Source: a virus
DNA: 50,977 bases
Strand: one strand, 5' to 3'
Virus record (IMG/VR): IMGVR_UViG_3300045733_000207
Location: 1 to 50,977 of that record
Part shown: positions 17,048-38,434 of the stretch, in pieces
Position numbering within the stretch: position 1 is the stretch's first letter
How the letters are laid out: every line of letters starts with the position of its first letter
Translations under genes and position numbers: made by a program
Notes under the pieces: generated by a model
What the model was told of the DNA's origin: nothing
The model's input: the letters and a program-made list of their open reading frames with translations, nothing else
Databases searched by the model: none

Positions 17048-17169
17048 GCAAACTGATATGGCTGTTGGTTGTGGCGGGGATCATTGTCCTGCTCGCCGTG
17101 GCATCAACGATATTCCTGTTCTACTTGATACGAGACGCGGCGAAGAAATACCAAGGGAAGGGGTACTGA
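17044..17169 (+). CDS. 41-residue single-pass membrane peptide
   Basis: Begins in an ATGA overlap with the previous stop. It is almost entirely one membrane helix (LIWLLVVAGIIVLLAVASTI) followed by a short basic tail ending KKYQGKGY. Tiny single-pass proteins next to holin candidates often act as holins or their regulators. Position and coupling support it as a gene. Confidence 0.55.
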   Translation: MSKLIWLLVVAGIIVLLAVASTIFLFYLIRDAAKKYQGKGY

Positions 17170-17170
17170 G

Positions 17171-18306: not shown

Positions 18307-18449
18307 AGAAGGCTCCGAAGAAAACTTGCGGGAACTGCCGGGACATAGCGTGCTCCTGCCGTGGGTGCGAAGATGACGTGCGGTGTCCGGGCGGCAACCT
18401 GAAATGCTGGTTGGAAACTTGCAAAGACTGGACGGGGAAAACGAAATGA
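18303..18449 (+). CDS. 48-residue Cys-rich protein
   Basis: Begins and ends in ATGA overlaps, which supports it despite its size. Eight Cys in 48 residues (CGNC, CSCRGC, then RCPGG, KCW, TCK) suggest two zinc sites or disulfides. No signal peptide is visible, so zinc binding in the cytoplasm is more likely. Function unknown. Confidence 0.6.
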   Translation: MKKAPKKTCGNCRDIACSCRGCEDDVRCPGGNLKCWLETCKDWTGKTK

Positions 18450-22665: not shown

Positions 22666-22696
22666 TTGACTGTTTTCAGGAGATGTGATTAACTAT
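22666..22696 (+). promoter_or_regulatory. Candidate promoter for pseudoknot RNA 1
   Basis: TTGACT at 22666 is followed by poor -10 matches (TTAACT at 17 bp, AACTAT at 19 bp) and then TATGCGGCATG. Similar TTGAC(A/T) boxes precede the other pseudoknot RNAs at 30636 and, on the - strand, 35497. The -35 is good and the -10 is weak. Confidence 0.3.
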
Positions 22697-22699
22697 GCG

Positions 22700-22840
22700 G
22701 CATGAAAAGAATACTGGTATGTTCTTGGAATCAAAACCACTGCATAGACAAGCTTGCATTTTGTCCCCACATGGACAAGTCCACTTGTCTGTCGGTCTGG
22801 CCCAAAACCGGAACGGCATACCAGCATGTGGGGACTTTTT
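22700..22840 (+). ncRNA. Pseudoknot leader RNA 1 with terminator-like end
   Basis: Strand a CTGGTATG (22714-22721) pairs with CATACCAG (22817-22824). Strand b GTCCCCACATG (22763-22773) pairs with CATGTGGGGAC (22825-22835), followed by five T. The order a-b-a'-b' is interleaved, and a' directly abuts b', so the stems could stack coaxially as an H-type pseudoknot. Between b and a' lie GACAAGT-CC-ACTTGTC and CGGT...ACCG hairpins. It may be an attenuator, a processive antiterminator or a free regulatory RNA. See the RNAs at 30.7 and 35.4 kb. Confidence 0.55.
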
Positions 22841-23138
22841 ATCCCTGCTGATTTCATCGCGTAAGCACCGACAATCGCTTCAGGCGGGTCGCTTGCTGAA
22901 GGAATGGCGCAGGGAGGAGGCTAACCCCACCTTGCTCAAAGATGATTCAGGGATTCACCACTCCGCGACAGAGAGAAGGCTAGGCATGGGCATATACCAT
23001 TGGCCGAGGGTGAACAACAAGCGACGGCGGCTCCGGCTGCGGGCTTACAGTCAACAGATAGTCCCTCTTTGCACAGGGGGATTATCTGCTCAGGCTCACC
23101 AACAACAGGCTGTCAGTCAAAGGAAAAGGGGGAGGAAT
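22841..23138 (+). other. Leader region with further hairpins, coding status uncertain
   Basis: 298 bases between pseudoknot RNA 1 and the gene at 23139. It holds CTTCAG...CTGAAG (about 22878-22901) and a strong stem CAGATA...TATCTG (about 23052-23085, with an inner TCCC/GGGGA). One frame stays open through it from 22695, but its composition is not protein-like and it has no good start. I favour a structured leader; a diverged gene remains possible. Confidence 0.4.
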
Positions 23139-23432
23139 ATGAACGGCAAACACCAAAAGAAACACTTCAACAATCCGCGCTTCGGCAAGTTTACATACAC
23201 GCCAGCCGATCTTCCGGTAACTTTCGGTCTTATGCCACATGAACAGCCACGGCTAACAACACTGCAAATTGTTCAGGATGTTATGACCGAGGCAGAATTG
23301 AGATGCAACTTCACACCGCCCGGATGTAAGAAGTGTGAGCACTATCCACCCGCACGTTTTCCGGCCTGTCGCGGATTGAAACGAAAAGCAGCAATCAGAA
23401 TTGCACTATGGTTTATCAATCACAGGAGTTGA
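23139..23432 (+). CDS. 97-residue CxxC protein
   Basis: ATG 23139 follows GGGGGAGGA, a far better start than the open upstream extension to 22695. Basic N-terminus (KHQKKHFNNPRFGKF), then CKKCEHYPPARFPAC, which could bind one zinc. It ends 1 base before the nuclease gene. Not recognised. Confidence 0.5.
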   Translation: MNGKHQKKHFNNPRFGKFTYTPADLPVTFGLMPHEQPRLTTLQIVQDVMTEAELRCNFTPPGCKKCEHYPPARFPACRGLKRKAAIRIALWFINHRS

Positions 23433-23433
23433 C

Positions 23434-23757
23434 ATGAACTACAAACCCATTGTTGTACTCGGATATTTCTTGGAGATGGGATTACCCGAACCAGTGTTTG
23501 AGCACGTCTATATTCCATGCAGAAAATTCAGGTTAGACATTGCTTTCCCTGCATACAAGGTGGGGTTAGAAGTTCAGGGCGGCTTATGGTTCAAGGCGGC
23601 ACACTCCACCGGCAAGGGTATCAAGCGCGACATGGAGAAACGCAATCTCGGAATCCTCCACGGCTGGGATGTCGTGGAGTGTGAACCTTGCGAAGTGTGC
23701 ATGTTGGAAACAGTAGAACTACTCAGGACGGTGCTCAGGTTGCACGGAAGGAAATAA
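23434..23757 (+). CDS. PD-(D/E)XK-type endonuclease
   Basis: 107 residues, AGGAG before the ATG. The core RKFRLDIAFPAYKVGLEVQGGLW (Asp35, Glu46, Gln48) followed by HSTGKGIKRDMEKRN and GW.VVECEP matches small phage and bacterial PD-(D/E)XK nucleases related to Vsr and DUF559 proteins. The Asp and Glu would hold the metal. It may resolve junctions, degrade host DNA or repair replication intermediates. It is followed within a few bases by a phage hypothetical gene. Confidence 0.65.
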   Translation: MNYKPIVVLGYFLEMGLPEPVFEHVYIPCRKFRLDIAFPAYKVGLEVQGGLWFKAAHSTGKGIKRDMEKRNLGILHGWDVVECEPCEVCMLETVELLRTVLRLHGRK

Positions 23758-23760
23758 CAT

Positions 23761-24153
23761 ATGGAATCAGAATATCCAACAGACGAGCAACTTTCCAAAA
23801 TCGAATTATGGCCAACGACCAATATGGTTGGCTTGGCCCAATACGTTGTCGAGGTGTGGCAAAATGATTTTGGCCAAGCGACGTTGAATCCTGCCAAAAC
23901 GTATATGAGACTTATTACAGGGGGTGGGTCTGGCAATGAATATATAATCGAGGCATTGAGTTCAACTCTGTTCTGGCAAGTATTCTGGGCAGCCTCATAC
24001 CGTGGCGGAGTATATGCGTTTGACGGCATCCGAGAGTTTGCCAGCTCCACAATGCCCCTACAAGCTCGTAAAACGGGCAAGGCGGGGTTCTGCGGCACTA
24101 AAGGCATACAGGGGAAGGGGTCAAGCAGGACAAACTGCGGGACAAACCCTTAA
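23761..24153 (+). CDS. Conserved phage hypothetical, 130 residues
   Basis: The start YPTDEQLSKIELW and the block ITGGGSGNEYIIEALSSTLFW..FWAASYRGGVYAF resemble a widespread phage hypothetical family of about 90 residues. The last 40 residues are low-complexity and basic, and may be an extension after the family end; an alternative frame also runs through 24002-24193, so a late frameshift is possible. Function unknown. Confidence 0.55.
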   Translation: MESEYPTDEQLSKIELWPTTNMVGLAQYVVEVWQNDFGQATLNPAKTYMRLITGGGSGNEYIIEALSSTLFWQVFWAASYRGGVYAFDGIREFASSTMPLQARKTGKAGFCGTKGIQGKGSSRTNCGTNP

Positions 24154-24189
24154 CAAAGCACTGTTAGTCAATACTTTGGAGGGGACAAA

Positions 24190-24561
24190 ATGAGCGACAA
24201 ACCAACAACTGAAACATGGGTCACCGGCTGCATAGCCAAACGCACACCGGATGCGCTGCGGATCCTCATGGACTTAGTGCAAGCTGGATTGCGGAATGGT
24301 GAATGTTCCGCGCTGGACGTACGCGACGTGCATTTCGATGAGCCTAACATTATTGGTTGCACTATGCGCCTTCTACCGAAACTAGGCTTTGTGCATACGG
24401 ATCGGCGCGTTGCCAATGTGATCCGGCGCAAACACTACAGGCGGGTTGATATGTGGGAACTGCGGGAACGTTACAAAGCTGAACTATTCATAGACAAATG
24501 CCGGGGCCGGTTGCTGGAAGTGGCGCAGGGGCAGGCAAATCAGTTAAGACTAGCAATGTGA
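24190..24561 (+). CDS. Hypothetical protein, winged-helix-like, 123 residues
   Basis: GGAGGGG before the ATG. Residues about 20-85 (TPDALRILMDLVQAGL, RDVHFDEPNIIGCTMRLLPKLGFV) have the helix-turn-helix-wing spacing of small phage DNA-binding proteins. Basic residues follow (RRKHYRRVD). It sits upstream of a terminator-like leader and the helicase, so it may regulate that operon. The fold is an inference. Confidence 0.4.
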   Translation: MSDKPTTETWVTGCIAKRTPDALRILMDLVQAGLRNGECSALDVRDVHFDEPNIIGCTMRLLPKLGFVHTDRRVANVIRRKHYRRVDMWELRERYKAELFIDKCRGRLLEVAQGQANQLRLAM

Positions 24562-24566
24562 TTTCA

Positions 24567-24643
24567 ACTCCGGGGACTTGCCTACTCCGTGACTAGTCCG
24601 CCGAGGATCCCGAAAGGGTAAAGCAGACCCGGAGTAGTTTTTT
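24567..24643 (+). promoter_or_regulatory. Terminator-like leader with two alternative stems
   Basis: CTACTCCG (24582-24589) pairs with CGGAGTAG (24630-24637), followed by six T. An upstream ACTCCGGG (24567-24574) pairs equally well with CCCGGAGT (24628-24635), so the two 8-bp stems exclude each other. GGACT/AGTCC (24574-24578 and 24595-24599) and a CCC-GAAA-GGG hairpin lie inside. The helicase gene starts 22 bases after the T run. This is the classic geometry of an attenuator. Confidence 0.5.
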
Positions 24644-24664
24644 GAAAGGGGAAACAATAAAGAG

Positions 24665-26098
24665 ATGAATGATTACGAGAAATTCTTGGAGCAAAAGTCG
24701 CAGCTTGGTGGGAACTATGGATTTGAACCGACGTTCATGCCCGCGCTTCTGTTTCCTTTTCAGGTCGCATTGACACAATGGGCAACAATGAAGGGACTTT
24801 GCGCTATTTTTGCCGACTGTGGTCTTGGCAAAACTTTCATTCAGTTGACCTGGGCTGAGAATGTCGCACGCAAAACAGACAAGCCCGTTCTCATTCTTGC
24901 GCCTCTTGCCGTATCAGGTCAAACAGTAAAAGAAGCCGACAAGATTGGAGTAGACTGTCAACAGAGTCGCGACGGTAAAGTCATGCCGCGAATCACGGTG
25001 ACTAACTATGAGAAATTACACCTGTTCAATCCTTCTGATTTTGCGGGATGTGTCTGCGATGAATCATCCATCTTGAAACATTTCACTGGCGCAACGCAAA
25101 TGCAAGTCACGCGGTTTATGAATAAGATGCCGTATCGATTGCTTTGCACGGCAACCGCCGCGCCTAACGATTACATTGAACTTGGAACGTCAAGTGAGGC
25201 GTTAGGGGAGTTAAATTATTCAGATATGCTGTCCAGATTTTTCAAACAGCTTGATGATAAGGGACAAAAGAGTGAGACTAAGAGACAAGACTTTGACGAG
25301 AAAGCATCAAAGCATTTTGCAAAGCTATCATTCAGAGTGTCGCAGACTATCGGGCAATACCGATTAAAACATCACGCTATAACGGCTTTCTGGAAATGGG
25401 TTTGTTCATGGTCAAGAGCATGTCGGAAGCCGAGTGATCTGGGATTCGATGATACGGGATTCATTCTACCGGAACTCCAAGAACAGCATCACATCATAAC
25501 ACCGACCACTCCGCCTGAGGGAATGCTTTTCTGTATGCCTGCTTTCGGACTGAGAGAAGAACGGGAAGAGCGACGGCGCACTATGAAAGAGCGTTGTGAG
25601 TTTGTGGCGTCATTGGTGAATCATTCTGAGCCTGCTGTTATTTGGTGCCACATGAATAAAGAGGGTGATCTGCTGGAAAAGATAATTCCTGATGCGCAGC
25701 AAATCAAAGGGTCAACGCCGGATGATATGCGTGAAGAACTTTACGCGGCGTTCAGTTCCGGCAATCAACGAGTGCTGATTATCAAGCCAAAGATAGGAGC
25801 TTGGGGACTCAACTGGCAGCATTGCGCACACGTTGTCACATTTGCCAGTCATTCTTATGAACAGTTCTATCAGTCAATAAGAAGATGCTGGAGGTTCGGG
25901 CAGAAAAGGCCTGTAAGATTAGACGTTGTCGCAACCGAGGGAGAACGCGGAGTGTTTGAAAACATGATGAGGAAGTCTCAGAGAGCGGATGCAATGTTTA
26001 CAGAATTAGTCAAACACATGAACGATGCACAAAAAATAGAGAGAGTCAACAGCTACACAAACAAAATGGAGGTTCCGTCATGGTCAAAGAACAGCTAA
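24665..26098 (+). CDS. SNF2-family helicase-like ATPase
   Basis: 477 residues. Motif I ADCGLGKT (about 50-57), motif II DESS (about 132-135) in place of DEAH, motif III CTATAAPND, and motif VI QSIRRCWRFGQ (about 403-413) identify a superfamily 2 SNF2-type DNA translocase of the compact phage kind. It hydrolyses ATP to move on or remodel DNA; strand separation is not certain. The methyltransferase gene overlaps its end by 19 bases, a pairing that suggests joint action in replication, recombination or protection of phage DNA. It lies behind a terminator-like leader. Confidence 0.8.
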   Translation: MNDYEKFLEQKSQLGGNYGFEPTFMPALLFPFQVALTQWATMKGLCAIFADCGLGKTFIQLTWAENVARKTDKPVLILAPLAVSGQTVKEADKIGVDCQQSRDGKVMPRITVTNYEKLHLFNPSDFAGCVCDESSILKHFTGATQMQVTRFMNKMPYRLLCTATAAPNDYIELGTSSEALGELNYSDMLSRFFKQLDDKGQKSETKRQDFDEKASKHFAKLSFRVSQTIGQYRLKHHAITAFWKWVCSWSRACRKPSDLGFDDTGFILPELQEQHHIITPTTPPEGMLFCMPAFGLREEREERRRTMKERCEFVASLVNHSEPAVIWCHMNKEGDLLEKIIPDAQQIKGSTPDDMREELYAAFSSGNQRVLIIKPKIGAWGLNWQHCAHVVTFASHSYEQFYQSIRRCWRFGQKRPVRLDVVATEGERGVFENMMRKSQRADAMFTELVKHMNDAQKIERVNSYTNKMEVPSWSKNS

Positions 26099-27036
26099 TC
26101 ACACCGCGCTATGCGATATACAATGGTGACTGCGTTCAAGCAATGCAAGAGTTGAAAGATGAATCAATCCACCTTTCTCTATACTCACCTCCTTTCGCCG
26201 GGTTATACGTTTATTCGAGCGATGAGCAAGACCTGTCAAACTCCGTCAACTTCACGGAGTTTATGGATCACTACCGTTTCGTGATAAACGAAATCCACCG
26301 GCTCACAATGCCTGGCCGAATATCAGCCGTGCATTGCATGGATATTACCACTGGGAATAGTGGGTTCGATCATCTGAAAGATTTTCCGGGAGATATAATT
26401 AGGCTCCACGAGGAATGCGGCTTTCATTATATCGCACGGTATCACATTTGGAAAGAGCCATTGACGATCCGCAATAGAACAATGATGAAGTCGCTATCGC
26501 ATAAATGTCTTACGTTAGATTCAACAAAATGCAGCGTTGCTAACGCGGATTATCTGTTGATCTTTCGGCGGTCCGGTAACAATCCTGTTCCTGTTGCGCA
26601 TACTCACGGACTGTTGAACTATGCCGGGGAAAAGCCGATACCAAACGAAGTCCTGCCTTATCGTAACTGGCAAGGTAGTCAGCTTGAGAACAGATATTCT
26701 CAATGGGTTTGGAGGCAATACGCAAGTTCATTCTGGGATGATGTTAGGATTGACCGCGTGTTGAAATACAGACCCGCAAAAGATCAAGACGATGAAAAGC
26801 ATTGTCACCCCTTGCAACTTGACGTAATAGAGCGTGCCTGCGTGCTATGGTCAAACCCTAACGACGTTGTGTTGACTCCGTTCATGGGAGTGGGATCAGA
26901 GGTCTATGGGGCAGTACTGAACGGACGCAAGGCCATAGGGGTTGAGTTGAAGTCGTCATACTTCAAACAGGCGGTACGAAATCTAGCCGAGATCAAGCTG
27001 GATGATGAGCATGGCGAGTTCCAATTCAAAACTTGA
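26080..27036 (+). CDS. DNA methyltransferase (N4-cytosine or N6-adenine type)
   Basis: 318 residues, GGAGG before the ATG, overlapping the helicase. The catalytic motif IV is SPPF (about residues 36-39) near the N-terminus, and the AdoMet motif I is TPFMGVGSEVYGAVLNGRKAIGVEL near the C-terminus (about 266-290), the beta-class order. SPP(Y/F) is most often N4-cytosine. It probably protects phage DNA from restriction; the recognition sequence is unknown. The overlap with the helicase suggests a functional pair. Confidence 0.8.
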   Translation: MVKEQLITPRYAIYNGDCVQAMQELKDESIHLSLYSPPFAGLYVYSSDEQDLSNSVNFTEFMDHYRFVINEIHRLTMPGRISAVHCMDITTGNSGFDHLKDFPGDIIRLHEECGFHYIARYHIWKEPLTIRNRTMMKSLSHKCLTLDSTKCSVANADYLLIFRRSGNNPVPVAHTHGLLNYAGEKPIPNEVLPYRNWQGSQLENRYSQWVWRQYASSFWDDVRIDRVLKYRPAKDQDDEKHCHPLQLDVIERACVLWSNPNDVVLTPFMGVGSEVYGAVLNGRKAIGVELKSSYFKQAVRNLAEIKLDDEHGEFQFKT

Positions 27037-27072
27037 CTCCACCCTGAATAACGAATAAGGTATGTACAAAGT

Positions 27073-27267
27073 ATGAACGAACCAAACAAGGTGAGATTTA
27101 CCTTCACGCTTGATCCGGTTATCGTGGAGAAGGTGAAGGTGCGGGGTAGGGCATTTGGGTTTGCGCTTAGTACGTGGATCAACCACATACTCGCCCGGTC
27201 AGAGGGCTTAGTTGACGATACGAATTGGCCGAGGAAAGATATTGATGCAACAAAGGAAGATGAATGA
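27073..27267 (+). CDS. Ribbon-helix-helix-like protein
   Basis: 64 residues. VRFTFTLDPVIVEKVKVRGRAFGFALSTWINHILARS has the strand followed by two helices of Arc/CopG/MetJ repressors, with an acidic tail. It could regulate the surrounding early genes. The stop overlaps the next start. Confidence 0.5.
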   Translation: MNEPNKVRFTFTLDPVIVEKVKVRGRAFGFALSTWINHILARSEGLVDDTNWPRKDIDATKEDE

Positions 27268-27497
27268 ACAACGATCCCGCCACAATCCCTGACCGTGCCG
27301 CCGCGATATTGTTCCCCATGCTTGGCATGAATGTCTATTCACGGGTTGATACACTGGCTGAACGGCTGGCGAAGTTGCTTGGACCCGGTCACACTATCCA
27401 TACCGTGATAGAAGGATTCAAGGAATCACTGGATGACCCTGAAAACACATGCAGAGAACTGGCTATACTGATTGCTAAAGCGGAGGGTGAGATATGA
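27264..27497 (+). CDS. Hypothetical protein, 77 residues
   Basis: ATGA overlaps on both sides. Helical and acidic; no motif recognised. Its position between a repressor-like gene and a zinc protein gives no clue to function. Confidence 0.5.
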   Translation: MNNDPATIPDRAAAILFPMLGMNVYSRVDTLAERLAKLLGPGHTIHTVIEGFKESLDDPENTCRELAILIAKAEGEI

Positions 27498-27670
27498 ACA
27501 GAATCAAGCGACAGAAGAATACTGCAAAGACCTGCAAGAATTGCTCGGCATGGTTCGGTGATGATGAGACTTGCTGGTATATCTCCTGCAAGCGCAACCC
27601 TTGCCAATATGACCATTGGAGATCAAAGAAGTTTGCAACGAGTTCCAACAATGCCGTGAGGGTCAAATGA
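27494..27670 (+). CDS. 58-residue Cys-rich protein
   Basis: Found from the ATGA overlaps on both sides. CKNCSAWFGDDETCWYISCKRNPC holds five Cys, resembling the small CxxC...C...C phage zinc proteins. Basic N- and C-termini may contact nucleic acid. Confidence 0.55.
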   Translation: MNRIKRQKNTAKTCKNCSAWFGDDETCWYISCKRNPCQYDHWRSKKFATSSNNAVRVK

Positions 27671-28392
27671 CCGCTGCGGGCATTTGTACTCTCGACGGGC
27701 TGGTTCGCTGTCTTGATCTCTTCTGCTGCGCCGGGGGGGCAGGAGAGGGCTACCGCCGCGCCGGGTTCGACGTGACCGGCGTGGACATCCGGCCTCAACC
27801 GCAGAACCCGCACCGATTCATTCAGGGGGACGCGCTCGCGTTCCTGCCCGCCCACGGCCACGAGTTCGACTTCATCCACGCAAGCCCGCCATGCCAAGGC
27901 TACAGCACGCTTGCCGCGATGCACCCAGGCAAGACGTGGCCGAAACTGATTGACCAAGTGCGGTCGTTGCTCAAGGCGACCGGACGGCCTTACGTGATTG
28001 AGAACGTCGAAACCGCACCGCTCAACCGTGAATCTGACCTGTTCGGAAACCACGGCGTCTTGCTGTGTGGGAGCATGTTTGGCCTCGGTGTGGAGAGCGG
28101 ATTTCTGCGGAGGCATCGAATCTTCGAGACGAGCTTTCCAGTCCCGCAGCCGGAATGCCGCCACGTCGGCAAGGCGGTGGGAGTTTACGGCCACGGCGGG
28201 CACACTGGAAAGCACCGGATGCTGTACCGCGAAGAGGCGGCGAAGGCGATGGGGATTGACTGGATGAACAGGGACAACATGTGCCAGGCGATACCGCCGG
28301 CGTACACCGAATGGCTTGGGCGCTACGCGATGGCCCATACAGCGAACGCCCGAAATCAGGGGCTTGCGCACCAAGGAGAACGCCATGACTGA
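27667..28392 (+). CDS. dcm: C5-cytosine DNA methyltransferase
   Basis: 241 residues from ATG 27667 (ATGA overlap), compact for the family. Motif I LDLFCCAGGAGEGYRRAGF (from about residue 17), motif IV ASPPCQGYS with the catalytic Cys near 76, and motif VI VIENVE (about 113) are intact. It methylates C5 of cytosine, probably to evade restriction. The target-recognition region is short. The gene is visibly richer in G and C than its neighbours, consistent with recent transfer. It is one of three methyltransferases within 4.6 kb. Confidence 0.85.
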   Translation: MTAAGICTLDGLVRCLDLFCCAGGAGEGYRRAGFDVTGVDIRPQPQNPHRFIQGDALAFLPAHGHEFDFIHASPPCQGYSTLAAMHPGKTWPKLIDQVRSLLKATGRPYVIENVETAPLNRESDLFGNHGVLLCGSMFGLGVESGFLRRHRIFETSFPVPQPECRHVGKAVGVYGHGGHTGKHRMLYREEAAKAMGIDWMNRDNMCQAIPPAYTEWLGRYAMAHTANARNQGLAHQGERHD

Positions 28393-28657
28393 GACAAACG
28401 CGAGCGGGGCGCAAGTACCCTGCATTTCATTGTTGGCCGATCACCTCGACTTGATGGTTGATGAGTTCAAGAGGATCAAGGCGCTGACAAGGGATACCGA
28501 AATTCAAGGGCTTTGTGACCGGGCAATCTCAAACACGAAACAGCGCGTTCCGGTGATTGTTCAACGGAACGAATGGGAGAGGAAGTTCTGGGAACTGGAC
28601 AAGCAATGGTCGGAGCGATACGCCGAATTGAAGAAGGCCACCGGCAGGAGGAAGTGA
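28385..28657 (+). CDS. Hypothetical helical protein, 90 residues
   Basis: The ATG lies 8 bases inside the methyltransferase gene, after AAGGAG. Helical and charged; the C-terminal half looks like a coiled coil (RNEWERKFWELDKQWSERYA). Not recognised. Confidence 0.5.
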   Translation: MTETNASGAQVPCISLLADHLDLMVDEFKRIKALTRDTEIQGLCDRAISNTKQRVPVIVQRNEWERKFWELDKQWSERYAELKKATGRRK

Positions 28658-28658
28658 A

Positions 28659-28967
28659 ATGACGCCCAAAGAAATTGAACAAGCAGAGCATGACGAGTTG
28701 GATAAGCACGGTGTGTTGAAGTTTGCCGAGCTTTCTCCTGTACGGTCGGTGCCATTGTTGGCTGAGGCAGTTCTTATTGACATCTTCAAGACAACTGTTC
28801 AGGCAATGCGAGATAGGCATATTCATCTGGCAGATCATTGTCTTGATTGCAGGCGTGAGTTTCGATGGGAATTCATATGCCCTGAATGCGAGGGCATTGA
28901 AATTGACAAAAGAAATCAGCAAGCCAACGCTCCTCTTGAGCGTTTGCGAGAAAAGGAGAATGGATGA
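28659..28967 (+). CDS. 102-residue zinc-ribbon protein
   Basis: GGAGGAAG precedes the ATG. CLDC and CPEC near residues 60-77 form one ribbon. The rest is helical. The stop overlaps the next start (ATGA). Function unknown. Confidence 0.5.
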   Translation: MTPKEIEQAEHDELDKHGVLKFAELSPVRSVPLLAEAVLIDIFKTTVQAMRDRHIHLADHCLDCRREFRWEFICPECEGIEIDKRNQQANAPLERLREKENG

Positions 28968-29197
28968 AAAAGAAGCGGCTGTCGAGCAATACGCTCCGAG
29001 AGGTTGTTCGGCTATGCTATCTCTGCAAAGCACCTGCAACGCGACTTCTGGTGCGGTGGGGTTATGATCCAGACATTACTACACGGAAACCAATTTGCTC
29101 GAAATGTCCTTCAGGTGGAGTTGACAGTACGTGTGGTTACTCAACTGAGCCATTACCGAACGCGGAGCATGAGCCTCCGCGAGAAAGGAAAGTATGA
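28964..29197 (+). CDS. 77-residue zinc-ribbon protein
   Basis: ATGA overlaps on both sides. CYLC and CSKC with a basic N-terminus suggest a nucleic-acid-binding ribbon. Function unknown. Confidence 0.5.
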   Translation: MKKKRLSSNTLREVVRLCYLCKAPATRLLVRWGYDPDITTRKPICSKCPSGGVDSTCGYSTEPLPNAEHEPPRERKV

Positions 29198-29484
29198 AAC
29201 GATTACGAATTGCCGCCGCGCTTCTCGCGGCAGGCTCCGGGCTTTTGTTGGCCGGAAGTATCTACGCAGATACCAACGTCTGGTCTAACGACAGCACCAA
29301 CATATGCTCGATCAATACATGGAGGGTATCTACTGATCTTACCATTGGCCCCGTCACTATCTGTACGACTAATGGGGTAGTCAAGATCAAGGAGGGCGTA
29401 GCACTTGATGAAGCGAGTAGAGCTTTTTGGAAGGCAGTGTCAGATGCGTATCCCGCGATGTTTGAAACGGTGAAAAAGAAGTGA
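29194..29484 (+). CDS. Small secreted protein
   Basis: 96 residues with a signal peptide (MKRLRIAAALLAAGSGLLLA, likely cleaved after YAD or earlier). The mature part has two Cys that may form a disulfide in the periplasm. Exported proteins from an early-gene region can act in superinfection exclusion, but nothing in the sequence proves that. Confidence 0.55.
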   Translation: MKRLRIAAALLAAGSGLLLAGSIYADTNVWSNDSTNICSINTWRVSTDLTIGPVTICTTNGVVKIKEGVALDEASRAFWKAVSDAYPAMFETVKKK

Positions 29485-29550
29485 AGGCCAACGCTGACAT
29501 GAGGCGCGGCGGGTGAGCCGTCGCCCTCCATGTGTTGGTTGGGCAATGTT
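29485..29550. other. Intergenic hairpin
   Basis: GAGGCGCGGC and GCCGTCGCCCTC, about 29501-29528, form an imperfect GC-rich hairpin just after the secreted-protein gene. No T run follows, so it may stabilise RNA rather than terminate transcription. Confidence 0.3.
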
Positions 29551-29715
29551 ATGGACGTAGATAAGAAATGGTTCAAGGATCAATTGTTCGTGATTGTGTA
29601 CCACACGGCGCACGAAAGCGAGTTGACACTGAGGGAGATGGTTCAGGCCCTTCACGAAGTGGCTGAACACGTCATGTTTCTGGAGGAAAAGAAGAATGAC
29701 AACGATGGAAGGTAA
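29551..29715 (+). CDS. Hypothetical protein, 54 residues
   Basis: The ATG at 29551 is favoured over an in-frame start at 29530; neither has a strong binding site. Helical and acidic. The last 20 bases overlap the next gene. Not recognised. Confidence 0.4.
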   Translation: MDVDKKWFKDQLFVIVYHTAHESELTLREMVQALHEVAEHVMFLEEKKNDNDGR

Positions 29716-29881
29716 ATGTGCGGCACGTCTGCATTGGTTGCATGACTGTTCAATCGGAACATTGGATGTAGACGGCTATGAGTTTGTAACGGGGCAGGGC
29801 TTCACAATCGAAGCTGCTGCGCTCGCCGCCGAAGCTGACATAAAAGAGGCGTGTCAATCATGGGACTATGTAGTCGTCTAA
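29696..29881 (+). CDS. Hypothetical protein, 61 residues
   Basis: GGAGGAAAAG before the ATG. It resembles small phage proteins with a beta-hairpin then a helix (LHDCSIGTLDVDGYEFVTGQ). Function unknown. Confidence 0.45.
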   Translation: MTTMEGKCAARLHWLHDCSIGTLDVDGYEFVTGQGFTIEAAALAAEADIKEACQSWDYVVV

Positions 29882-29940
29882 CGCCGCAACTCAGCCGCGA
29901 GCTTAGGCGAGTAGGCTGGTGTTGCTGGTTGGAACTGAAT

Positions 29941-30099
29941 ATGAAAACAACTTTAGATATGCTTAAAATGAGATTGTTCCTTTTGGAGAAATTGCGGGAT
30001 CAGATGGATGAAGATATTTTGCATGTATGGTTCGCATGGCAATGGGCGAAATATAGACATAGTTCCAACACTCAAGCTGAGGCTGAGAGAAGAGCGTAG
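29941..30099 (+). CDS. Hypothetical helical protein, 52 residues
   Basis: The ATG at 29941 was chosen. The same frame is open from 29851, with another ATG at 29860 overlapping the previous gene, so the true start is uncertain. Long helix; not recognised. Confidence 0.35.
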   Translation: MKTTLDMLKMRLFLLEKLRDQMDEDILHVWFAWQWAKYRHSSNTQAEAERRA

Positions 30100-30101
30100 C
30101 G

Positions 30102-30596
30102 ATGAACGATAGATCTCCAGCGCCTTGTTCGGCGGCTCCGGTCAAATGGAAAGGACGCGCTGTCTTTAGCTCGGCCCACGTCGAATGGGGAACTGACCCG
30201 GCACTAAAAGCGGCGCTCGACAAAGAGTTTAGGTTCACGCTCGATCCATGTACACCTGGACAAATATGGGATGGCAGGGCGATGTCGTGGGTCGGACATC
30301 GCGTCTTCTGTAATCCTCCATACGGTAAAGGCATGGACAAGTGGTTCGTCAAAGGGCCGGAAGCAGAACTCGCCGTGTTCCTTGTGCCTGCAAGAACCGA
30401 TGTGGGGTGGTTTCACGACTACGCGCTAAAAGCTGCCGAGATCAGATTCTTTCGTGGGCGTCTTAAATTTGTGGAGGGTCACGCTATCAAACCAGACAAA
30501 TTCTTTGGGACTGCGCCGTTCCCCTCGATGCTCGTAATTTTCAGGCGCGAGGATTCGCCGAACAGTGCAATATGCGTCAAGACGGTTTGCCATTAG
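30102..30596 (+). CDS. dam: Phage N6-adenine DNA methyltransferase (Dam family)
   Basis: 164 residues. FSSAHVEWGTDPALKAALDKEF, FTLDPC, RVFCNPPYGKGM (motif IV NPPY, about 71-74), VFLVPARTDVGWFHD and APFPSMLVIF are the conserved blocks of the small phage Dam family (PF05869-like, from memory). It methylates adenine N6, protecting phage DNA or timing replication and packaging. It closes the methyltransferase cluster and precedes the promoter of pseudoknot RNA 2. Confidence 0.85.
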   Translation: MNDRSPAPCSAAPVKWKGRAVFSSAHVEWGTDPALKAALDKEFRFTLDPCTPGQIWDGRAMSWVGHRVFCNPPYGKGMDKWFVKGPEAELAVFLVPARTDVGWFHDYALKAAEIRFFRGRLKFVEGHAIKPDKFFGTAPFPSMLVIFRREDSPNSAICVKTVCH

Positions 30597-30635
30597 AACG
30601 AAACAAGCTGTCCGAGCAGCGGCAGCGAATAAAGG

Positions 30636-30663
30636 TTGACAGTGCGCGGGGATTTGGTAGGAT
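30636..30663 (+). promoter_or_regulatory. Candidate sigma70-type promoter for pseudoknot RNA 2
   Basis: TTGACA (30636-30641), 16-bp spacer, TAGGAT (30658-30663). The -35 is perfect and the -10 matches 4 of 6. Transcription would start near 30670, directly before strand a of the RNA. Confidence 0.45.
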
Positions 30664-30669
30664 GTGCGA

Positions 30670-30775
30670 CATGCTAGAGTTAAATCAGAATCAGTTTGAA
30701 TCCCGTTCAAGTGGCGCAAGCCATTTCTTCCCGCAAGGGGAAACTCTAGCAGGCTTGGGCGGGATTCTTTTTTTT
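30670..30775 (+). ncRNA. Pseudoknot leader RNA 2 with intrinsic terminator
   Basis: Strand a GCTAGAGTT (30673-30681) pairs with AACTCTAGC (30742-30750). Strand b GAATCCCGTTCAAG (30698-30711) pairs with CTTGGGCGGGATTC (30754-30767) over 14 positions including two G-U, followed by eight T. Between b and a' are two hairpins with GCAA tetraloops (TGGC-GCAA-GCCA at 30712-30723 and TTCCC-GCAA-GGGGA at 30728-30741). The order a-b-a'-b' is interleaved. The replication gene begins 20 bases after the T run, so this leader can control the replication operon. Confidence 0.65.
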
Positions 30776-30795
30776 ACAGGGAAAAGAGGATTGCC

Positions 30796-31449
30796 ATGTA
30801 TGGTAAATTATTTGTTTCGATGTACGAGGGGTCAATGGTTGGAGCTGGTGCCAATGTTTTTGCGTTATGGGGTTATTGCATAGCCAAAGCCGATCCAGAG
30901 GATCACACTGTTATTTTGAATCCCGAACTTTTAGCAAAGATCATTGGTACTACTGCCGAGGAAATATCAAAGTCATTGACATTTTTGACATCGCCTGATC
31001 CTAACTCAAAAAATGGAGATCACGGCGGTTGCAGGTTGTTACATCAATCAGGATTCCAGTATTTCCTTGTGAGTCACGAACACTATCGGAACATCAAAAA
31101 CAGCGAAGACGTAAGGGCTTACAACAGAGAAATGAAACGTAGAGAACGTGAAAGGAAGGCGTTGAAGGTAAATGTCAATGACAGTCATGGACAAGTCAAT
31201 GACTCTGCCTCTGCTTCTGTATCTGATATTGGGGATTGTCAAGGGGGACATACGCTCGCCGAGTGTCTAGCTGCTTCTGAGGGAATTGGAATGAAGCCTG
31301 ACGATGTTAAGAAGTTCTTCGACTACTACGACGGGGTTAAAGGCTGGGGTACAATCAAAGGCAGTCTCAAGTCAGCGTTGTCATACTGGAAATCCAACAG
31401 CCATAATTTCGACAAGCCTAAATCACGAACCCGCCCAGTGAACATATGA
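30796..31449 (+). CDS. Replication-initiator-like protein
   Basis: 217 residues, AGAGGA before the ATG. An N-terminal winged-helix-like region (LLAKIIGTTAEEISKSLTFL) is followed by a basic linker (REMKRRERERKALK), then a C-terminal block MKPDDVKKFFDYYDGVKGWGTIKGSLKSALSYW, like the ends of phage replisome organisers (DnaD/DnaT-like). It would bind the origin and load the helicase. The stop overlaps the primase-helicase gene (ATGA), which supports the role. Confidence 0.6.
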   Translation: MYGKLFVSMYEGSMVGAGANVFALWGYCIAKADPEDHTVILNPELLAKIIGTTAEEISKSLTFLTSPDPNSKNGDHGGCRLLHQSGFQYFLVSHEHYRNIKNSEDVRAYNREMKRRERERKALKVNVNDSHGQVNDSASASVSDIGDCQGGHTLAECLAASEGIGMKPDDVKKFFDYYDGVKGWGTIKGSLKSALSYWKSNSHNFDKPKSRTRPVNI

Positions 31450-33059
31450 ACATGCAAGATTTTCTTTCCCGGTTGCAAAAGGTTAGCAAGACCTCAAAGG
31501 GCTGGCAAGCGTGTTGTCCGTCCCATGCTGATACAACGCCGTCCCTTTCTGTTGACGAAGGAGAAAAAGGAATTGTTCTTACGTGTCGCGCTGGTTGTGA
31601 TACTGAGAAGGTCGTTGCCGCAATGGGTTTGAAAATGTCAGACCTATTTCGGGACTCATCAAAGGAAGTCATAATCACGCCTATCAAGCGGCAGGTCGTT
31701 GAAAGTTACGTGTACACCGACGCGCTTGGCAAGCCACTTTTCAGGACATGCCGAATTGAGCCAGGCAAGGACGGTCGCAAGAAAGACTTTGCGCAACAGG
31801 GAATTGGGGCAGACGGAAAATATCAGAACAACATGGAAGGCATGATCCGCGTCTTATACAATCTTCCGGCAGTATTGAAGTCTGAACAGGTCGTAATCTG
31901 TGAGGGGGAGCGCAAAGCAAATTGGATCAACGAAACAGGATACGTAGCAACGTGCAATGTTGGAGGCGCGGGGAAGTGGCTTGACGCTTGGACTGATTGC
32001 CTTGCCGGGAAATCTATTGTTATTTGTGCCGACAATGACGAACCCGGTCAGAACCATGCACGCCTTTTACACAAGGCTCTATCAGGACACGTCAAAGAAA
32101 TTCTTCATATCCGAGTACCGAAACCACACAATGACATTGTTGACTATTTCCGCAGTGTAGGCATGGACAAGGACACACGTACAAAGGCGTTCATTGATTT
32201 GCTCATGGCCGGAATGCCTGTCCCGCAAAATCTTGATGTGCCTATCCGCTCAATGGCGCAACTAGAAGAAGAATACATCGCATTCATTGCTAAATCTTCC
32301 AATACAGTTTTACTTCTTGGCAACTGGTTGCCAGCGTATCGAACCTTGCGGGGAATTGTACCCGGAGAGATGGTTACGATCATTTCAGATACCGGCGTTG
32401 GCAAAACAATGGTGCTGCATAATATAGCGTTATCAGCATCGCCGCTCTATGTCCTGTTGTTTGAATTGGAGTTGCCGAGCAGTTTAACCTTTGAACGGCT
32501 TGCCGCACTCACAACGGAATGTAGTGGATATGACATCGAGTCATTCTACAAGTCAACCAAACCCGTCCACTGGCAACGAAACGAACAGGTCAAGCGGATA
32601 TTCACCTGTTCAGAATCAAATCTATCAGTTGAGAAAATCAGGGAGATATTGCACAAGGCTGAATTGGCAATGGGCGTTAAACCCGCTGTTGTGATGATTG
32701 ATTACATCCAGTTGATGCAAGGCAGGGGTAGTCGCTACGAGAAAACATCAGACGTTGCAGAACAGTTAAAGGTGCTCGCCAAAGAGGAAAACGTAATATT
32801 GATCCTTGCATCTCAAGTATCCCGCGATGGCTCAGAGCAAATAACATTGCACTCGTCTAAAGATAGCGGGGCAATAGAAAATTCATCAGGTTGCGTTCTC
32901 GGTGCATGGCGCGACGAACATGAACGCGACAGCATTTATATCAAGCTTCTGAAGTTCACCAAAGGCCGCGCCGGAGAATTTGCAGCCGTAAAATGCACCA
33001 TTGACCGCTCATTGAGAATTAAGGAGGCAATGCCCTTTGACAAAGATGACCCGCGCTGA
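31446..33059 (+). CDS. Primase-helicase (CHC2 zinc, TOPRIM, DnaB-like)
   Basis: 537 residues. Zinc motif CPSH (Cys24, His27) with CRAGC (Cys47, Cys51); TOPRIM region VVICEGERKANW then IVICADNDEPG; RecA-fold helicase with Walker A SDTGVGKT (about 314-321) and Walker B VVMIDYIQL (about 415-423), then LILASQVSRDG. This is the T7 gp4-like domain order: it unwinds DNA and lays down primers. With the initiator-like gene it forms the replication operon, but no DNA polymerase gene is seen. Confidence 0.85.
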   Translation: MNMQDFLSRLQKVSKTSKGWQACCPSHADTTPSLSVDEGEKGIVLTCRAGCDTEKVVAAMGLKMSDLFRDSSKEVIITPIKRQVVESYVYTDALGKPLFRTCRIEPGKDGRKKDFAQQGIGADGKYQNNMEGMIRVLYNLPAVLKSEQVVICEGERKANWINETGYVATCNVGGAGKWLDAWTDCLAGKSIVICADNDEPGQNHARLLHKALSGHVKEILHIRVPKPHNDIVDYFRSVGMDKDTRTKAFIDLLMAGMPVPQNLDVPIRSMAQLEEEYIAFIAKSSNTVLLLGNWLPAYRTLRGIVPGEMVTIISDTGVGKTMVLHNIALSASPLYVLLFELELPSSLTFERLAALTTECSGYDIESFYKSTKPVHWQRNEQVKRIFTCSESNLSVEKIREILHKAELAMGVKPAVVMIDYIQLMQGRGSRYEKTSDVAEQLKVLAKEENVILILASQVSRDGSEQITLHSSKDSGAIENSSGCVLGAWRDEHERDSIYIKLLKFTKGRAGEFAAVKCTIDRSLRIKEAMPFDKDDPR

Positions 33060-33183
33060 AAAGATTGACCACAATGTAGATTACTACGTTGCAATGATTG
33101 ACCGTCAAGGATTGCGTAAGGTGCTCAGGATGATTCTCGCAATGTTAGACCAAGCAAGAAAGAAAGCAGGGTACAAACCATGA
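33046..33183 (+). CDS. Hypothetical helical protein, 45 residues
   Basis: Overlaps the primase end by 14 bases and the next gene by 4 (ATGA). A strong AAGGAGG lies at 33021-33027, about 18 bases upstream. Helical (DYYVAMIDRQGLRKVLRMIL). It resembles the next protein (YYVKLVEKDGLEPVIRFL), so the pair may be a duplication. Confidence 0.45.
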   Translation: MTRAEKIDHNVDYYVAMIDRQGLRKVLRMILAMLDQARKKAGYKP

Positions 33184-33368
33184 TCCTCGAAACGAGACAG
33201 CAACGAGTGGACCGGCTGACAAAGTACTATGTCAAACTCGTGGAGAAGGACGGACTGGAGCCGGTAATCAGATTCTTACGTGAGGTCATCGAAAGTCACA
33301 ACAGCGGCAACAAGCCAAGGTTGGACTCGGTGGAAAGCAACGCCCCGGCTCCGAAGGAGAAAGTATGA
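33180..33368 (+). CDS. Hypothetical helical protein, 62 residues
   Basis: ATGA overlap with the previous gene. KYYVKLVEKDGLEPVIRFLREVI resembles the preceding 45-residue protein. It ends 27 bp before the opposing - strand gene, and no clear terminator lies between them. Confidence 0.5.
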   Translation: MILETRQQRVDRLTKYYVKLVEKDGLEPVIRFLREVIESHNSGNKPRLDSVESNAPAPKEKV

Positions 33369-33395
33369 CAATAATTTTTGCTTGTTGTTGATAGT

Positions 33396-33749
33396 TTATT
33401 CATCACCGAGTCTCAACCACGCCTGATGTTTTTTCCAGCATGACCGACAATAGTACCGTTTCCCTAATTGCCTTGCCGCCCTTTGTCCGCAAGCACAGAT
33501 TCGACTATGGATAATCGCCGCCTTCCTTTTCCGGGAATACAGAATCCGTTGACACGCCCTGCAATGCAGGTATGGTTTACCGGTGAGCTTGTATATTCCT
33601 TTTCGTGGTGGAACCTTGCCGCAAGTCGAGCATAGATGTTTGAGCACCAGACTACGCCGGTAAAATCGCATGTACCCGGAATGATTACCTCTCCATTCAT
33701 TGCCGCGCTCTTGAGCCAATGGACGATTGCAAGTTGGACAGTTATCCAT
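33396..33749 (-). CDS. Multi-zinc-ribbon protein, 117 residues
   Basis: The start at 33749 (MDNCPTC) overlaps the HNH stop by 8 bases; a longer frame to 33857 overlaps the HNH gene much more. CPTC, CSTC, CRAC, CACG and CRSC give at least two ribbons, with many Arg and Lys between. This layout suggests binding to nucleic acid or to transcription machinery. It is the last gene of the leftward operon. Confidence 0.55.
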   Translation of the reverse strand: MDNCPTCNRPLAQERGNEWRGNHSGYMRFYRRSLVLKHLCSTCGKVPPRKGIYKLTGKPYLHCRACQRILYSRKRKAAIIHSRICACGQRAARQLGKRYYCRSCWKKHQAWLRLGDE

Positions 33750-34041
33750 GTGGATGTTTTTCAAAGTGCTTCTCCATTTCTGCATTTTCGAGTGTGCGTC
33801 GTTCTTCGATCCGATGTTCCGCGTTGGCTTCGTCTTGAATTTCATCATCTTGTTCATGCCTTACATTATGGCAAGCCCGGCATAAGAGGAAATTTGCTCC
33901 TGATGAATTGCTGCCGCCTTCTGATTTTGGTGGAACGTGGTGCAAAGTCAAGTCGTTAGGAGAAAATGTCTTCTCACAATCCACGCAACATCCGACTTGC
34001 GACATATACAACGCCATAAACCGCCTGTTGTTTATTCTCAC
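33742..34041 (-). CDS. HNH endonuclease
   Basis: 99 residues from a GTG at 34041, which overlaps the previous stop. Cys19-x2-Cys22, LTLHHVPPKSEGGSN (His34, His35), Asn50, CRACHNVRH (Cys54, Cys57, His58, His62) form a zinc-stapled HNH fold. Helix-rich acidic tail. It may be a free-standing homing-type nuclease or help packaging; it lies far from the terminase genes, so packaging is less likely. Confidence 0.75.
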   Translation of the reverse strand: MRINNRRFMALYMSQVGCCVDCEKTFSPNDLTLHHVPPKSEGGSNSSGANFLLCRACHNVRHEQDDEIQDEANAEHRIEERRTLENAEMEKHFEKHPHG

Positions 34042-34229
34042 TAGACCCGCCCTTCCTGCTCCAGCCTGAGCCGTGTCCTGTTAGCTGCCCCGCGCCAGAC
34101 TAGCCACTGATGCAGCCGTGGGCGTAACCGTTTCCATTCGCCTCGGCACAGTTGCCATACATAGCGCAAGCTTGCCGCCGTGACTGCCAAGGACAAGCTG
34201 ATGATTGCTACAGTGAGCAGTAGCTTCAT
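34041..34229 (-). CDS. Small membrane protein, 62 residues
   Basis: GGAGGTG before the ATG. An N-terminal helix (LLLTVAIISLSLAVTAASL) is followed by an Arg-rich tail. The TAG stop overlaps the HNH start; the ATG overlaps the previous stop. Similar helix-plus-basic-tail proteins occur at 21570. Confidence 0.55.
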   Translation of the reverse strand: MKLLLTVAIISLSLAVTAASLRYVWQLCRGEWKRLRPRLHQWLVWRGAANRTRLRLEQEGRV

Positions 34230-34513
34230 TTCCGCACCTCCATCAGTTTATCGGCTTGCTGGTTAATGCAGTTCCTTGTTGCCGCCAATTGCGCCCGGTA
34301 CGATTCTGCTCTGTCAGGTCGTAACTGTTCTAACGTGCTAGCATCACGCTCAACACGGAGCAAATCATCTTCTAGCTCCGCCAGTTCCGCAGCATGTTCC
34401 ATCTCGGGCGTTATTTCCAATTCATTGAGTGTACCGAGATGATACCCACGCCCGCCGCAATCCTGACATGTGATCACGCCGTTACCCTGACATGATTCGC
34501 AAGTACATTTCAT
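34226..34513 (-). CDS. Half DnaJ-type zinc-finger protein
   Basis: 95 residues, strong AAGGAGGTGG site. CESCQGNG (Cys5, Cys8) and CQDCGGRG (Cys16, Cys19) are two CxxCxGxG motifs, half of a DnaJ Cys-rich domain, followed by a long acidic coil. No J domain is present. It may act as a thiol or zinc-dependent chaperone helper. ATGA overlap with the next gene. Confidence 0.6.
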   Translation of the reverse strand: MKCTCESCQGNGVITCQDCGGRGYHLGTLNELEITPEMEHAAELAELEDDLLRVERDASTLEQLRPDRAESYRAQLAATRNCINQQADKLMEVRK

Positions 34514-34704
34514 TTTACCACCTCCTTTGGCCCGTCGCTGATACTGACTTCCGGCGCGCCAACTGGTTGCCAGCCTGCAAGGTATTTCCCGCCGGCGCGT
34601 GCCTGCCGCACAGCTTCCCGCAGTGCCGCGGCCTGGTCGCTTGCCTCGTACTCAATTTCCGTGCGCTCATAGGTGCGCCGGAGTAACACTGATCTATAGG
34701 TCAT
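34510..34704 (-). CDS. Hypothetical protein, 64 residues
   Basis: The ATG at 34704 has AAAGGA 8 bases upstream; the frame is open to 34788, but that part overlaps the upstream gene. YERTEIEYEASDQAAALREAVRQ suggests strand-helix structure. Overlaps both neighbours. Confidence 0.5.
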   Translation of the reverse strand: MTYRSVLLRRTYERTEIEYEASDQAAALREAVRQARAGGKYLAGWQPVGAPEVSISDGPKEVVK

Positions 34705-35020
34705 TTGATGTGTCCTTTCTGATGTTGGTGAGCCATGACTTTTTTGGCATATGTCCACAAATCTGACATACCCATTTTGATCTACCATTACCTAAATCCT
34801 TGGCAACTTGATTTGTGTGTGTCCGGCATTTTGCGCATACTTGCCAGCGTTTCCCTTCGGCCTGTCGTACTGTGTCGGGCGTGGGATCGTATTGCTTGAA
34901 TGGTTTGAAAGGATGTGGAGCTTTGTCCCGTACTTCGTATGGTGTGACGCTGAGAATCACATCAAACATATGGGAACACTTAGGACAACACAGAGAAAGA
35001 GCTTTGTCTATCGTGGGCAT
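34694..35020 (-). CDS. Zinc-ribbon protein, 108 residues
   Basis: GAGGG lies 7 bases before the ATG. CPKC, CAKC and CQIC motifs, with CC at the start, indicate one or two ribbons. It is the first gene after the 314-base leader that follows pseudoknot RNA 3, so that RNA may control it. Confidence 0.55.
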   Translation of the reverse strand: MPTIDKALSLCCPKCSHMFDVILSVTPYEVRDKAPHPFKPFKQYDPTPDTVRQAEGKRWQVCAKCRTHTNQVAKDLGNGRSKWVCQICGHMPKKSWLTNIRKDTSNDL

Positions 35021-35334
35021 AGTTGAACCCTCTCTCTTAGTTGTGTTTGAAGATCACATTCAGGCAGACGGGACTTTTCCCTCTTTTCCTTCGACCAGTA
35101 CGATCCAGTATCACACTCAGGAGCGGCTATGCCCACCGCTAGGGCCGGTATCTTATTTTCTGACACTCTTTCGGCTGTCGTAGTGCTCTGGACGCCAGCC
35201 ATTCCGAGAATCAGTCCGAGGATTTCTCCCTCAGCACGCCATAGCCTATCGGCTACTTTCCGGGTCGCAAAGTCCTTACAAGCGTTGCCCGATTTCCTGA
35301 ATCGTAACAAGTTAGACAGTGGGGAGAGAAAAGA
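35021..35334 (-). other. Leader region after pseudoknot RNA 3
   Basis: 314 bases between the RNA and the zinc-ribbon gene. It can form TAGCC-GATA-GGCTA and AGCGG...GCCGCT hairpins. A frame is open through 35008-35472 on this strand, but it starts inside the RNA stems and has no binding site. I see no convincing gene. Confidence 0.4.
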
Positions 35335-35462
35335 GCATCCCGCAGCCGTTAGACAGTTCAGAACAATGCAACGGCTCTTGTAGGAACCGGCTACGGGATG
35401 CAAAGATAAATCTAAGTCGCGCAGTTTGCATTGTTCTTTTGTCCTTCTGCTTTTACTGTCTG
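35335..35462 (-). ncRNA. Pseudoknot leader RNA 3
   Basis: On the - strand, strand a GAACAATGCAA (35436-35426) pairs perfectly with TTGCATTGTTC (35371-35361). Strand b GCATCCCGTAGCCG (35401-35388) pairs with CGGCTGCGGGATGC (35348-35335) over 14 positions with one G-U. GGTTC...GAGCC forms a hairpin between b and a'. The order a-b-a'-b' matches RNAs 1 and 2. A T-rich CTCTTTTCTCT follows b', weaker than a true T run. Confidence 0.6.
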
Positions 35463-35468
35463 ATGCGA

Positions 35469-35497
35469 ACATTGGACTATTCTCTTTTATGTGTCAA
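35469..35497 (-). promoter_or_regulatory. Candidate promoter for pseudoknot RNA 3
   Basis: On the - strand TTGACA (35497-35492), 17-bp spacer, CAATGT (35474-35469). The -35 is perfect and the -10 is weak (3 of 6). It lies just after the stop of the 31-residue membrane peptide. Confidence 0.35.
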
Positions 35498-38078: not shown

Positions 38079-38308
38079 TATACTGTGCTGGTGTAAGGGT
38101 TACTCTATGTCATAGGATAGGTATAGTATATCCGTACCAGGAATATCGCTCGCGATTATACCACACAACCATATTCAGTGTCAATCACCAATCCGGGCAT
38201 ATCCCACAAAACATGCGTTCCGACCAATACTGTATCGCAAAAATAGTTCGCACAACATACACAGTTTCAGCCCGGACAGTTTCATAATTTGGTTATCACA
38301 TCATATCT

Positions 38309-38355
38309 GCATACAGTTGTATGCACCAACAACAACGCTGCATACAACTGTATGC
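38309..38355. promoter_or_regulatory. Two palindromic operators, GCATACA-NN-TGTATGC
   Basis: GCATACAGTTGTATGC at 38309-38324 and GCATACAACTGTATGC at 38340-38355, 31 bp apart and each followed by ACCAACA. Each has 7-bp half sites around a 2-bp centre, and TTGACA follows at 38366. This is the form of a dimeric repressor or initiator site present twice. Confidence 0.6.
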
Positions 38356-38434
38356 ACCAACACTATTGACACATGTGACATACATCACTACTGGATTTGG
38401 TAGTCGCTGCATCCCACGCGCCATCTGTGTTGCC

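Follow-up and report, generated by a model that had tools for sequence, protein, structure and literature searches.

Introduction

In the leader-peptide attenuators of the trp and erm type, translation of a leader open reading frame (ORF) decides between alternative RNA structures. The c4-icd-ant1 region of phages P1 and P7 contains two pairs of complementary segments; there, expression of the next gene depends on the leader ORF icd, and transcription terminates prematurely when this ORF is untranslated. The put RNAs of phage HK022 consist of two hairpins that modify RNA polymerase, and are not known to include a terminator or an ORF. In phage P4, complementary segments cause transcription to end prematurely in an untranslated leader, and the replication operon is thereby silenced (CI RNA and seqA/seqC; PMC4825925). 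In the Salmonella prophage Gifsy-1, IsrK-orf45-anrP has been established experimentally; it is formed by a small RNA with its own terminator and a leader ORF with an AUGA overlap and a sequestered start site (PMC4825925). Here, we describe three RNA elements of IMG/VR virus record IMGVR_UViG_3300045733_000207, positions 1–50,977 (the whole stretch analysed, hereafter the window). In these elements two stems are interleaved in the order a-b-a'-b', thus forming a pseudoknot, and a leader ORF threads the structure. They belong with the leader-ORF attenuators, and we think that each is probably, judging from sequence, a translation-gated attenuator in a 5' leader that makes a phage operon depend, for its expression, on the early arrival of a ribosome.

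The comparison with the known systems shows both common points and differences. In the trp/erm-type attenuators the codons or the nascent peptide sense the signal, and mutually exclusive hairpins share a strand, whereas the elements described here show interleaved structures and no conservation of the peptide. The control logic of c4-icd-ant1 (C4 antisense RNA, RF01695) and of the P4 CI leader is related, although C4 is processed and, as an antisense RNA, has a target that lies further downstream, while the pairs described here form a single pseudoknot spanning the ORF. HK022 put RNAs are similar in that they are structured and lie where early transcripts begin. CI of P4, unlike the present elements, is a separate processed RNA, and no such element was found when P4 was scanned with the descriptor given below. 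The likeness to Gifsy-1 IsrK-orf45-anrP, the nearest of the known systems, includes an own promoter, an intrinsic terminator that gives a short RNA, a read-through mRNA and a leader start hidden by long-range pairing, insofar as these are predicted here, and, in 11 of the 18 elements tabulated below but in none of the window's three, a leader-ORF stop overlapping the next start (AUGA); in Gifsy-1 it is the nucleotide rather than the amino-acid sequence that is conserved (PMC4825925). On the other hand, the terminator is ahead of orf45 in IsrK and is predicted at the ORF end in these elements; the short IsrK RNA opens the long mRNA in trans, whereas a single compact pseudoknot takes in all four strands here; and the gene behind IsrK is that of an antirepressor, in place of the nuclease and replication genes seen here. 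Searching 13 member records with Rfam isrK (RF01394) gave nothing above cut-off, the best score being at chance level (14.2 vs 50 bits) and elsewhere in the contigs, and the window sites had no isrK match at E ≤ 10. The C4 antisense RNA model gave 0 matches at E ≤ 10 in the same number of member records. No described match for the architecture was found in the open-access literature.

Interleaved Stems at Three Sites

The original prediction placed the a-b-a'-b' order at three sites of the window, and both a re-reading of the sequence and a mechanical search find it there. The small hairpins between b and a' and the T-rich tails after b' are present at all three, and the TTGAC(A/T) boxes announced upstream are TTGACT or TTGACA, at 22666, 30636 and 35497 (−). 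Some of the stem lengths had to be corrected: stem a has 10 bp instead of 9 at site 2 and 12 bp instead of 11 at site 3. The −10 box of site 3 proved poor.

A descriptor that requires a TTGAC-type box ahead of the interleaved stems and a T-rich tail behind them retrieves exactly these three sites from the 51-kb window, with scores of 64.5, 56.5 and 50.0. In 200 dinucleotide shuffles of the window, the top single site reached 48.0 and the top third site 40.0. When b, b' and the tail were kept fixed and the rest was shuffled, an equally good stem a appeared in 4%, 0.9% and 0.3% of cases (sites 1, 2 and 3), and one as good and as near b' in 0.1–0.2%. The three sites are non-random. Their features are as follows.

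Site 1 (+ strand)
22666–22694, +: promoter-like sequence TTGACT-17-TTAACT
22702–22851, +: leader ORF, ATG to TGA, 49 codons (MKRILVCSW...GTFYPC), spanning the pseudoknot and the T tract
22714–22723, +: strand a, CTGGTATGTT
22763–22773, +: strand b, GTCCCCACATG
22815–22824, +: strand a', GGCATACCAG
22825–22835, +: strand b', CATGTGGGGAC, with TTTTTAT immediately 3', terminator-like

Site 2 (+ strand)
30636–30663, +: promoter-like sequence TTGACA-16-TAGGAT, with TG ahead of the −10
30671–30883, +: leader ORF, ATG to TAG, 70 codons (MLELNQNQF...), spanning the pseudoknot and the U8 tract
30672–30681, +: strand a, TGCTAGAGTT
30698–30712, +: strand b, GAATCCCGTTCAAGT
30742–30751, +: strand a', AACTCTAGCA
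30753–30767, +: strand b', GCTTGGGCGGGATTC, followed by the tail TTTTTTTT

Site 3 (− strand)
35469–35497, −: promoter-like sequence, TTGACA at 35497–35492, weak −10
35455–35461, −: outer extension of strand a, AGACAGT, found by folding
35426–35437, −: strand a, AGAACAATGCAA
35312–35431, −: leader ORF, ATG (35431) to TAA (35312), 39 codons (MQTARLRF...LPTV)
35388–35401, −: strand b, GCATCCCGTAGCCG
35360–35371, −: strand a', TTGCATTGTTCT
35351–35357, −: outer extension of strand a', ACTGTCT
35335–35348, −: strand b', CGGCTGCGGGATGC, followed by the tail TCTTTTCT

At site 1, stem a is formed by 8 Watson-Crick and 2 G-U pairs and stem b by 11 pairs, and the tail is TTTTTATC. Site 2 has 10 pairs in a and 14 of 15 in b. 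At site 3 there are 12 pairs in a and 14 in b, and a is prolonged by the outer extension of 7 bp (35461–35455 with 35357–35351).

The stems of the three sites have in common only a weak G(N)ATCCC-like start. Sequence kinship among the sites was considered and rejected: site 1 against site 3 beat most shuffles through a long weak alignment, while the leaders alone did not. At gathering scores, none of the 4227 families of Rfam matched the window or the member loci (116 kb); at relaxed thresholds, the window gave only chance matches (E = 1.4–3.8). The layouts of hepatitis delta virus-like ribozymes, group I introns and retrons were considered and discarded, as a' adjoins b' in most members and there is no Rfam match.

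Two more interleaved stem pairs, both devoid of T tails, were observed in the window. The one at 33305–33413 (+), scoring 49, sits between converging operons and is within the range of shuffled DNA; the other, at 745–572 (−), scores 59 and lies inside an 843-aa ORF on the opposite strand.

Related Elements in Other Phages

The phage of the window has almost no relatives; portal and capsid searches recover only one 11.7-kb contig. The route through the major capsid protein, portal and primase was abandoned, because it gave only this contig (L007), which lacks the early region, or remote helicases. The 80 usable phage contigs studied were gathered instead via the SNF2-type helicase encoded at 24665–26098. 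With the 15 further elements found in unrelated uncultured phages, which precede HNH-nuclease or replication genes, 18 distinct elements were tabulated. Most have a −35 box ~33–41 nt upstream of strand a; L051, L031 and L011 show the same layout, with a TTGACA box 33–35 nt upstream of strand a. Further elements were found in L061, L145 and L180, and G007 (phage of L051; L108) contains two, at 17065–17173 and 18328–18436, 1.2 kb apart in the replication region.

The element of L028/L029 belongs to a group of related contigs with a common promoter (L016, L018, L020, L024, L170, L174, L176 and L185–L207). A promoter scan of IMG/VR and reading of this group gave seven different leaders (V1–V7) behind one promoter, ahead of HNH nuclease or replication-initiation genes in the cases where the gene could be named; V6, with the weakest pairing of all tabulated elements, is provisional. 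Leaders and first genes are exchanged at an ATGA junction: L191 and L024 have the same leader and different genes, L189 and L191 the same gene and different leaders, and in L018, L170 and L174 the shared promoter is followed directly by the gene, with no RNA element. The exchangeable cassettes include HNH nucleases and replication initiators, and this suggests that the replication operon begins at a hot spot of recombination or homing. The stem a of L188/L016 is nested in two parts (TGAACCC/GGGTTCA and GACGAAC/GTTCGTC), resembling the two-part stem a of site 3.

The search was also performed with a descriptor of the coupling only, that is, omitting promoter and T tail. It gave 126 matches and one shuffle of the same DNA gave 96, for which reason only matches with a good promoter were kept. 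For three elements (L051b, L145 and L180) the search had included the ORF, and they were accepted by inspection; as shuffles yield some promoter-filtered matches too, these three were excluded from the ORF statistics.

Covariation was studied on four alignable variants of one phage group (L185, L194, L190 and L191). In this alignment 97.1% of the cells pair, and both sides have changed in 8 of 26 pairs, two of them in a:a' and six in b:b', a result matched by none of 500 shuffles. Sliding the partner by 1–3 columns left 24–46% paired, with 0–1 double changes. The way in which the window sites were found has no bearing on this test. A covariance model was unsuited, since pseudoknot pairs cannot be encoded in it and the sequences of different groups are too divergent. 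The proposal of an RNA family beyond the known classes thus stands, on the lack of Rfam matches, the like architecture in other phages and the covariation in one phage group.

The sequences of strands and loops vary between members, and the loop lengths range widely (L1 16–52 nt, L2 10–42 nt). A constant topology with variable sequence would fit recognition of shape, and since the window has three copies and G007 two, a single factor could govern several operons of one phage. The elements might then be cis attenuators that sense a ligand or a protein: binding of a factor from phage or host to the pseudoknot would switch b:b', and the leader ORF would be secondary. We find this quite unlikely, as no conserved unpaired motif usable as a binding pocket was seen across the members, and a sensor of this kind leaves the open frame unexplained.

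A Leader Frame Open Through the Structure

The original prediction did not include the main feature, a leader ORF threaded through the pseudoknot of each element. Its start codon lies just ahead of, within or shortly past strand a (−12 to +36 nt from the 5' end of a, and within a at site 3, in L011 and in V6), its frame runs through b, a' and b', and in nearly all elements it continues into the tail. Among the 15 members found with no ORF criterion, 14 have an ATG frame open through b', for an expectation of 3.7 in shuffled segments (P < 1e-5), and the 15th (V2) has a GTG start. Counting all elements, the leader frame is open through b' in 18/18, and the other two frames in 3/18 and 5/18. In 11 of the 18, the leader stop and the following start codon share an ATGA, and the leaders of L031 and L011 are in the reading frame of the gene behind them. 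A Shine-Dalgarno sequence is absent at most leader starts. The A+C content after the start codon is 0.72, compared with a background of 0.505 (P < 1e-5); A- or CA-rich starts suit initiation in which no Shine-Dalgarno sequence takes part.

The short ORF of every element could be seen as a sign that what these loci produce is the leader peptide, as a small phage protein, the stems being incidental or a mere terminator. The peptides speak strongly against it, making it highly improbable in our opinion. They have no meaningful family match, with only weak scores far below curated cut-offs. The leaders of L185 and L190 end alike and both have 36 codons, but indels between them displace the frame across b-a'-b' and then restore it, so that the peptides differ and both frames remain open. 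It is the open frame, not the peptide, that is conserved. An annotated ORF of the Ash/Icd type was likewise rejected, with Pfam PF10554 absent from the window and the leader peptides having no Pfam match.

The same frame bears on a further explanation, in which promoter and b:b' terminator would produce a stable 5'-sealed pseudoknotted RNA of ~90–150 nt that acts in trans on RNAs or a protein. Read-through into the operon would be incidental, or the short form would act on its own long mRNA as IsrK does. Promoter-like sequence, a compact fold and a terminal T tract in most members agree with this, and IsrK of Gifsy-1 is such an RNA with a leader ORF downstream (PMC4825925). However, strand and loop sequences vary from member to member, V4 and L145 lack the T tract, and a small RNA acting in trans needs neither an open ORF in all members nor a stop placed on the next start. 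We therefore regard it as unlikely.

Proposed Mechanism

In the attenuation mechanism that we propose, transcription would start at the sigma70-type promoter, leaving strand a at or near the 5' end of the RNA in most members. If a ribosome loads before a' is transcribed, the leader ORF would be translated across b, a' and b', the sequence of the peptide being irrelevant. The translating ribosome would hold both stems open and RNA polymerase would clear the T tract; finishing at or near the next start codon (the ATGA overlap), the ribosome might then re-initiate. With no timely ribosome, a' would capture a and mask the start codon, and b' would capture b to form an intrinsic terminator, turning the operon off. 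In V4 (L188/L016) the b:b' helix would in this case lie over the downstream Shine-Dalgarno sequence, with the same outcome. As stem b of V4 covers that sequence, one layout could serve both transcriptional and translational control. Host translation capacity or a phage factor are candidate determinants of ribosome entry during infection. We infer this race between ribosome and fold, its signal included, from the arrangement of the elements.

Attenuation had been one of the two roles considered in the original prediction, and it fits. The leader ORF running through the structure favours translation-gated attenuation and coupling over the other, antitermination. A processive antitermination RNA of the put/nut type, modifying RNA polymerase at early promoters, would explain why operons of early type on both strands begin with these RNAs. 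Yet the T tract right after b' is a stopping place and not one for loading an antiterminator, V4 covers a Shine-Dalgarno sequence instead, and no known Rfam family was matched; we give this explanation very little weight.

Several observations weigh against translation-gated attenuation. V4, with its stem b over the Shine-Dalgarno sequence of the next gene, and L145 have no T tract. The T-rich tail proposed as a family trait is thus one of most members but not of these two, and termination is not the universal output. A terminator with a branched loop of 40–60 nt may also be inefficient. The window sites are grouped with the other elements by architecture and not by sequence homology, so their kinship could be convergence. 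Since members were selected for both stems, pairing across groups is not independent evidence, and the covariation is based on four sequences of one phage group other than that of the window. Finally, the ATGA junction is missing at all three window sites: the leader ORFs of sites 1 and 3 end ~290 nt before the next gene, that of site 2 runs past its start, and the three are not A/C-rich after the start codon (0.48–0.57).

Genomic Surroundings of the Sites

The gene content of the window includes a pair of SNF2-type helicase and methyltransferase, a primase-helicase, DNA methyltransferases and an SU10-like portal. DNA similarity to known phages, studied for site 1 and other elements, was limited to one HNH gene of Pseudanabaena phage Pan5. 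Site 1 begins the rightward early region, site 2 has a Dam methyltransferase gene on one side and the replication genes on the other, and site 3 is inside the leftward operon, where the ATG of its leader ORF falls within strand a. At site 2 the ATG of the 217-aa gene comes 28 nt after strand b', and the end of the leader ORF reaches, in a different frame, into the replication gene that starts at 30796. Control by antisense RNA was considered there, because site 2 is faced by promoter-like sequence on the minus strand, at 30835, and was rejected: the frequency of such sites is close to that in shuffles (25 vs 22.9), and no matching opposing sites were seen at sites 1 and 3.

Sites 1 and 3 have 290–315 nt between the T tract and the next recognisable gene. 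One frame is open throughout 22852–23138 (+) (ORF 22695–23432), in frame with a 97-aa gene from 23139, and another throughout 35311–35021 (−) (ORF 35472–35008). The similarity between these two tracts is not significant; each is possibly a second leader ORF or an RNA domain.

A perfect TTGACA-18-TATAAT promoter with a TG extension, at 38155–38184 (−), is directed at the leftward operon. Close to it, at ~38308–38362, there are two 18-bp operator-like palindromes, TGCATACAGTTGTATGCA and TGCATACAACTGTATGCA. Together they look like a repressor-controlled switch region, as far as sequence can tell.

Conclusions

We put forward, tentatively, that these elements represent a widespread and so far undescribed class of phage RNA switches, in which a pseudoknot over a peptide-independent leader ORF works through a race between ribosome entry and folding and travels from one phage operon to another as a module joined at ATGA. 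Homology searches and Rfam miss such elements because only their topology is conserved, and the descriptor makes a large survey possible. If the mechanism holds, the leader ORFs would explain some of the short unannotated or spuriously annotated ORFs before phage nuclease and replication genes. Moreover, unrelated phage groups would be using a common, sequence-independent RNA device that ties early operons to immediate translation.

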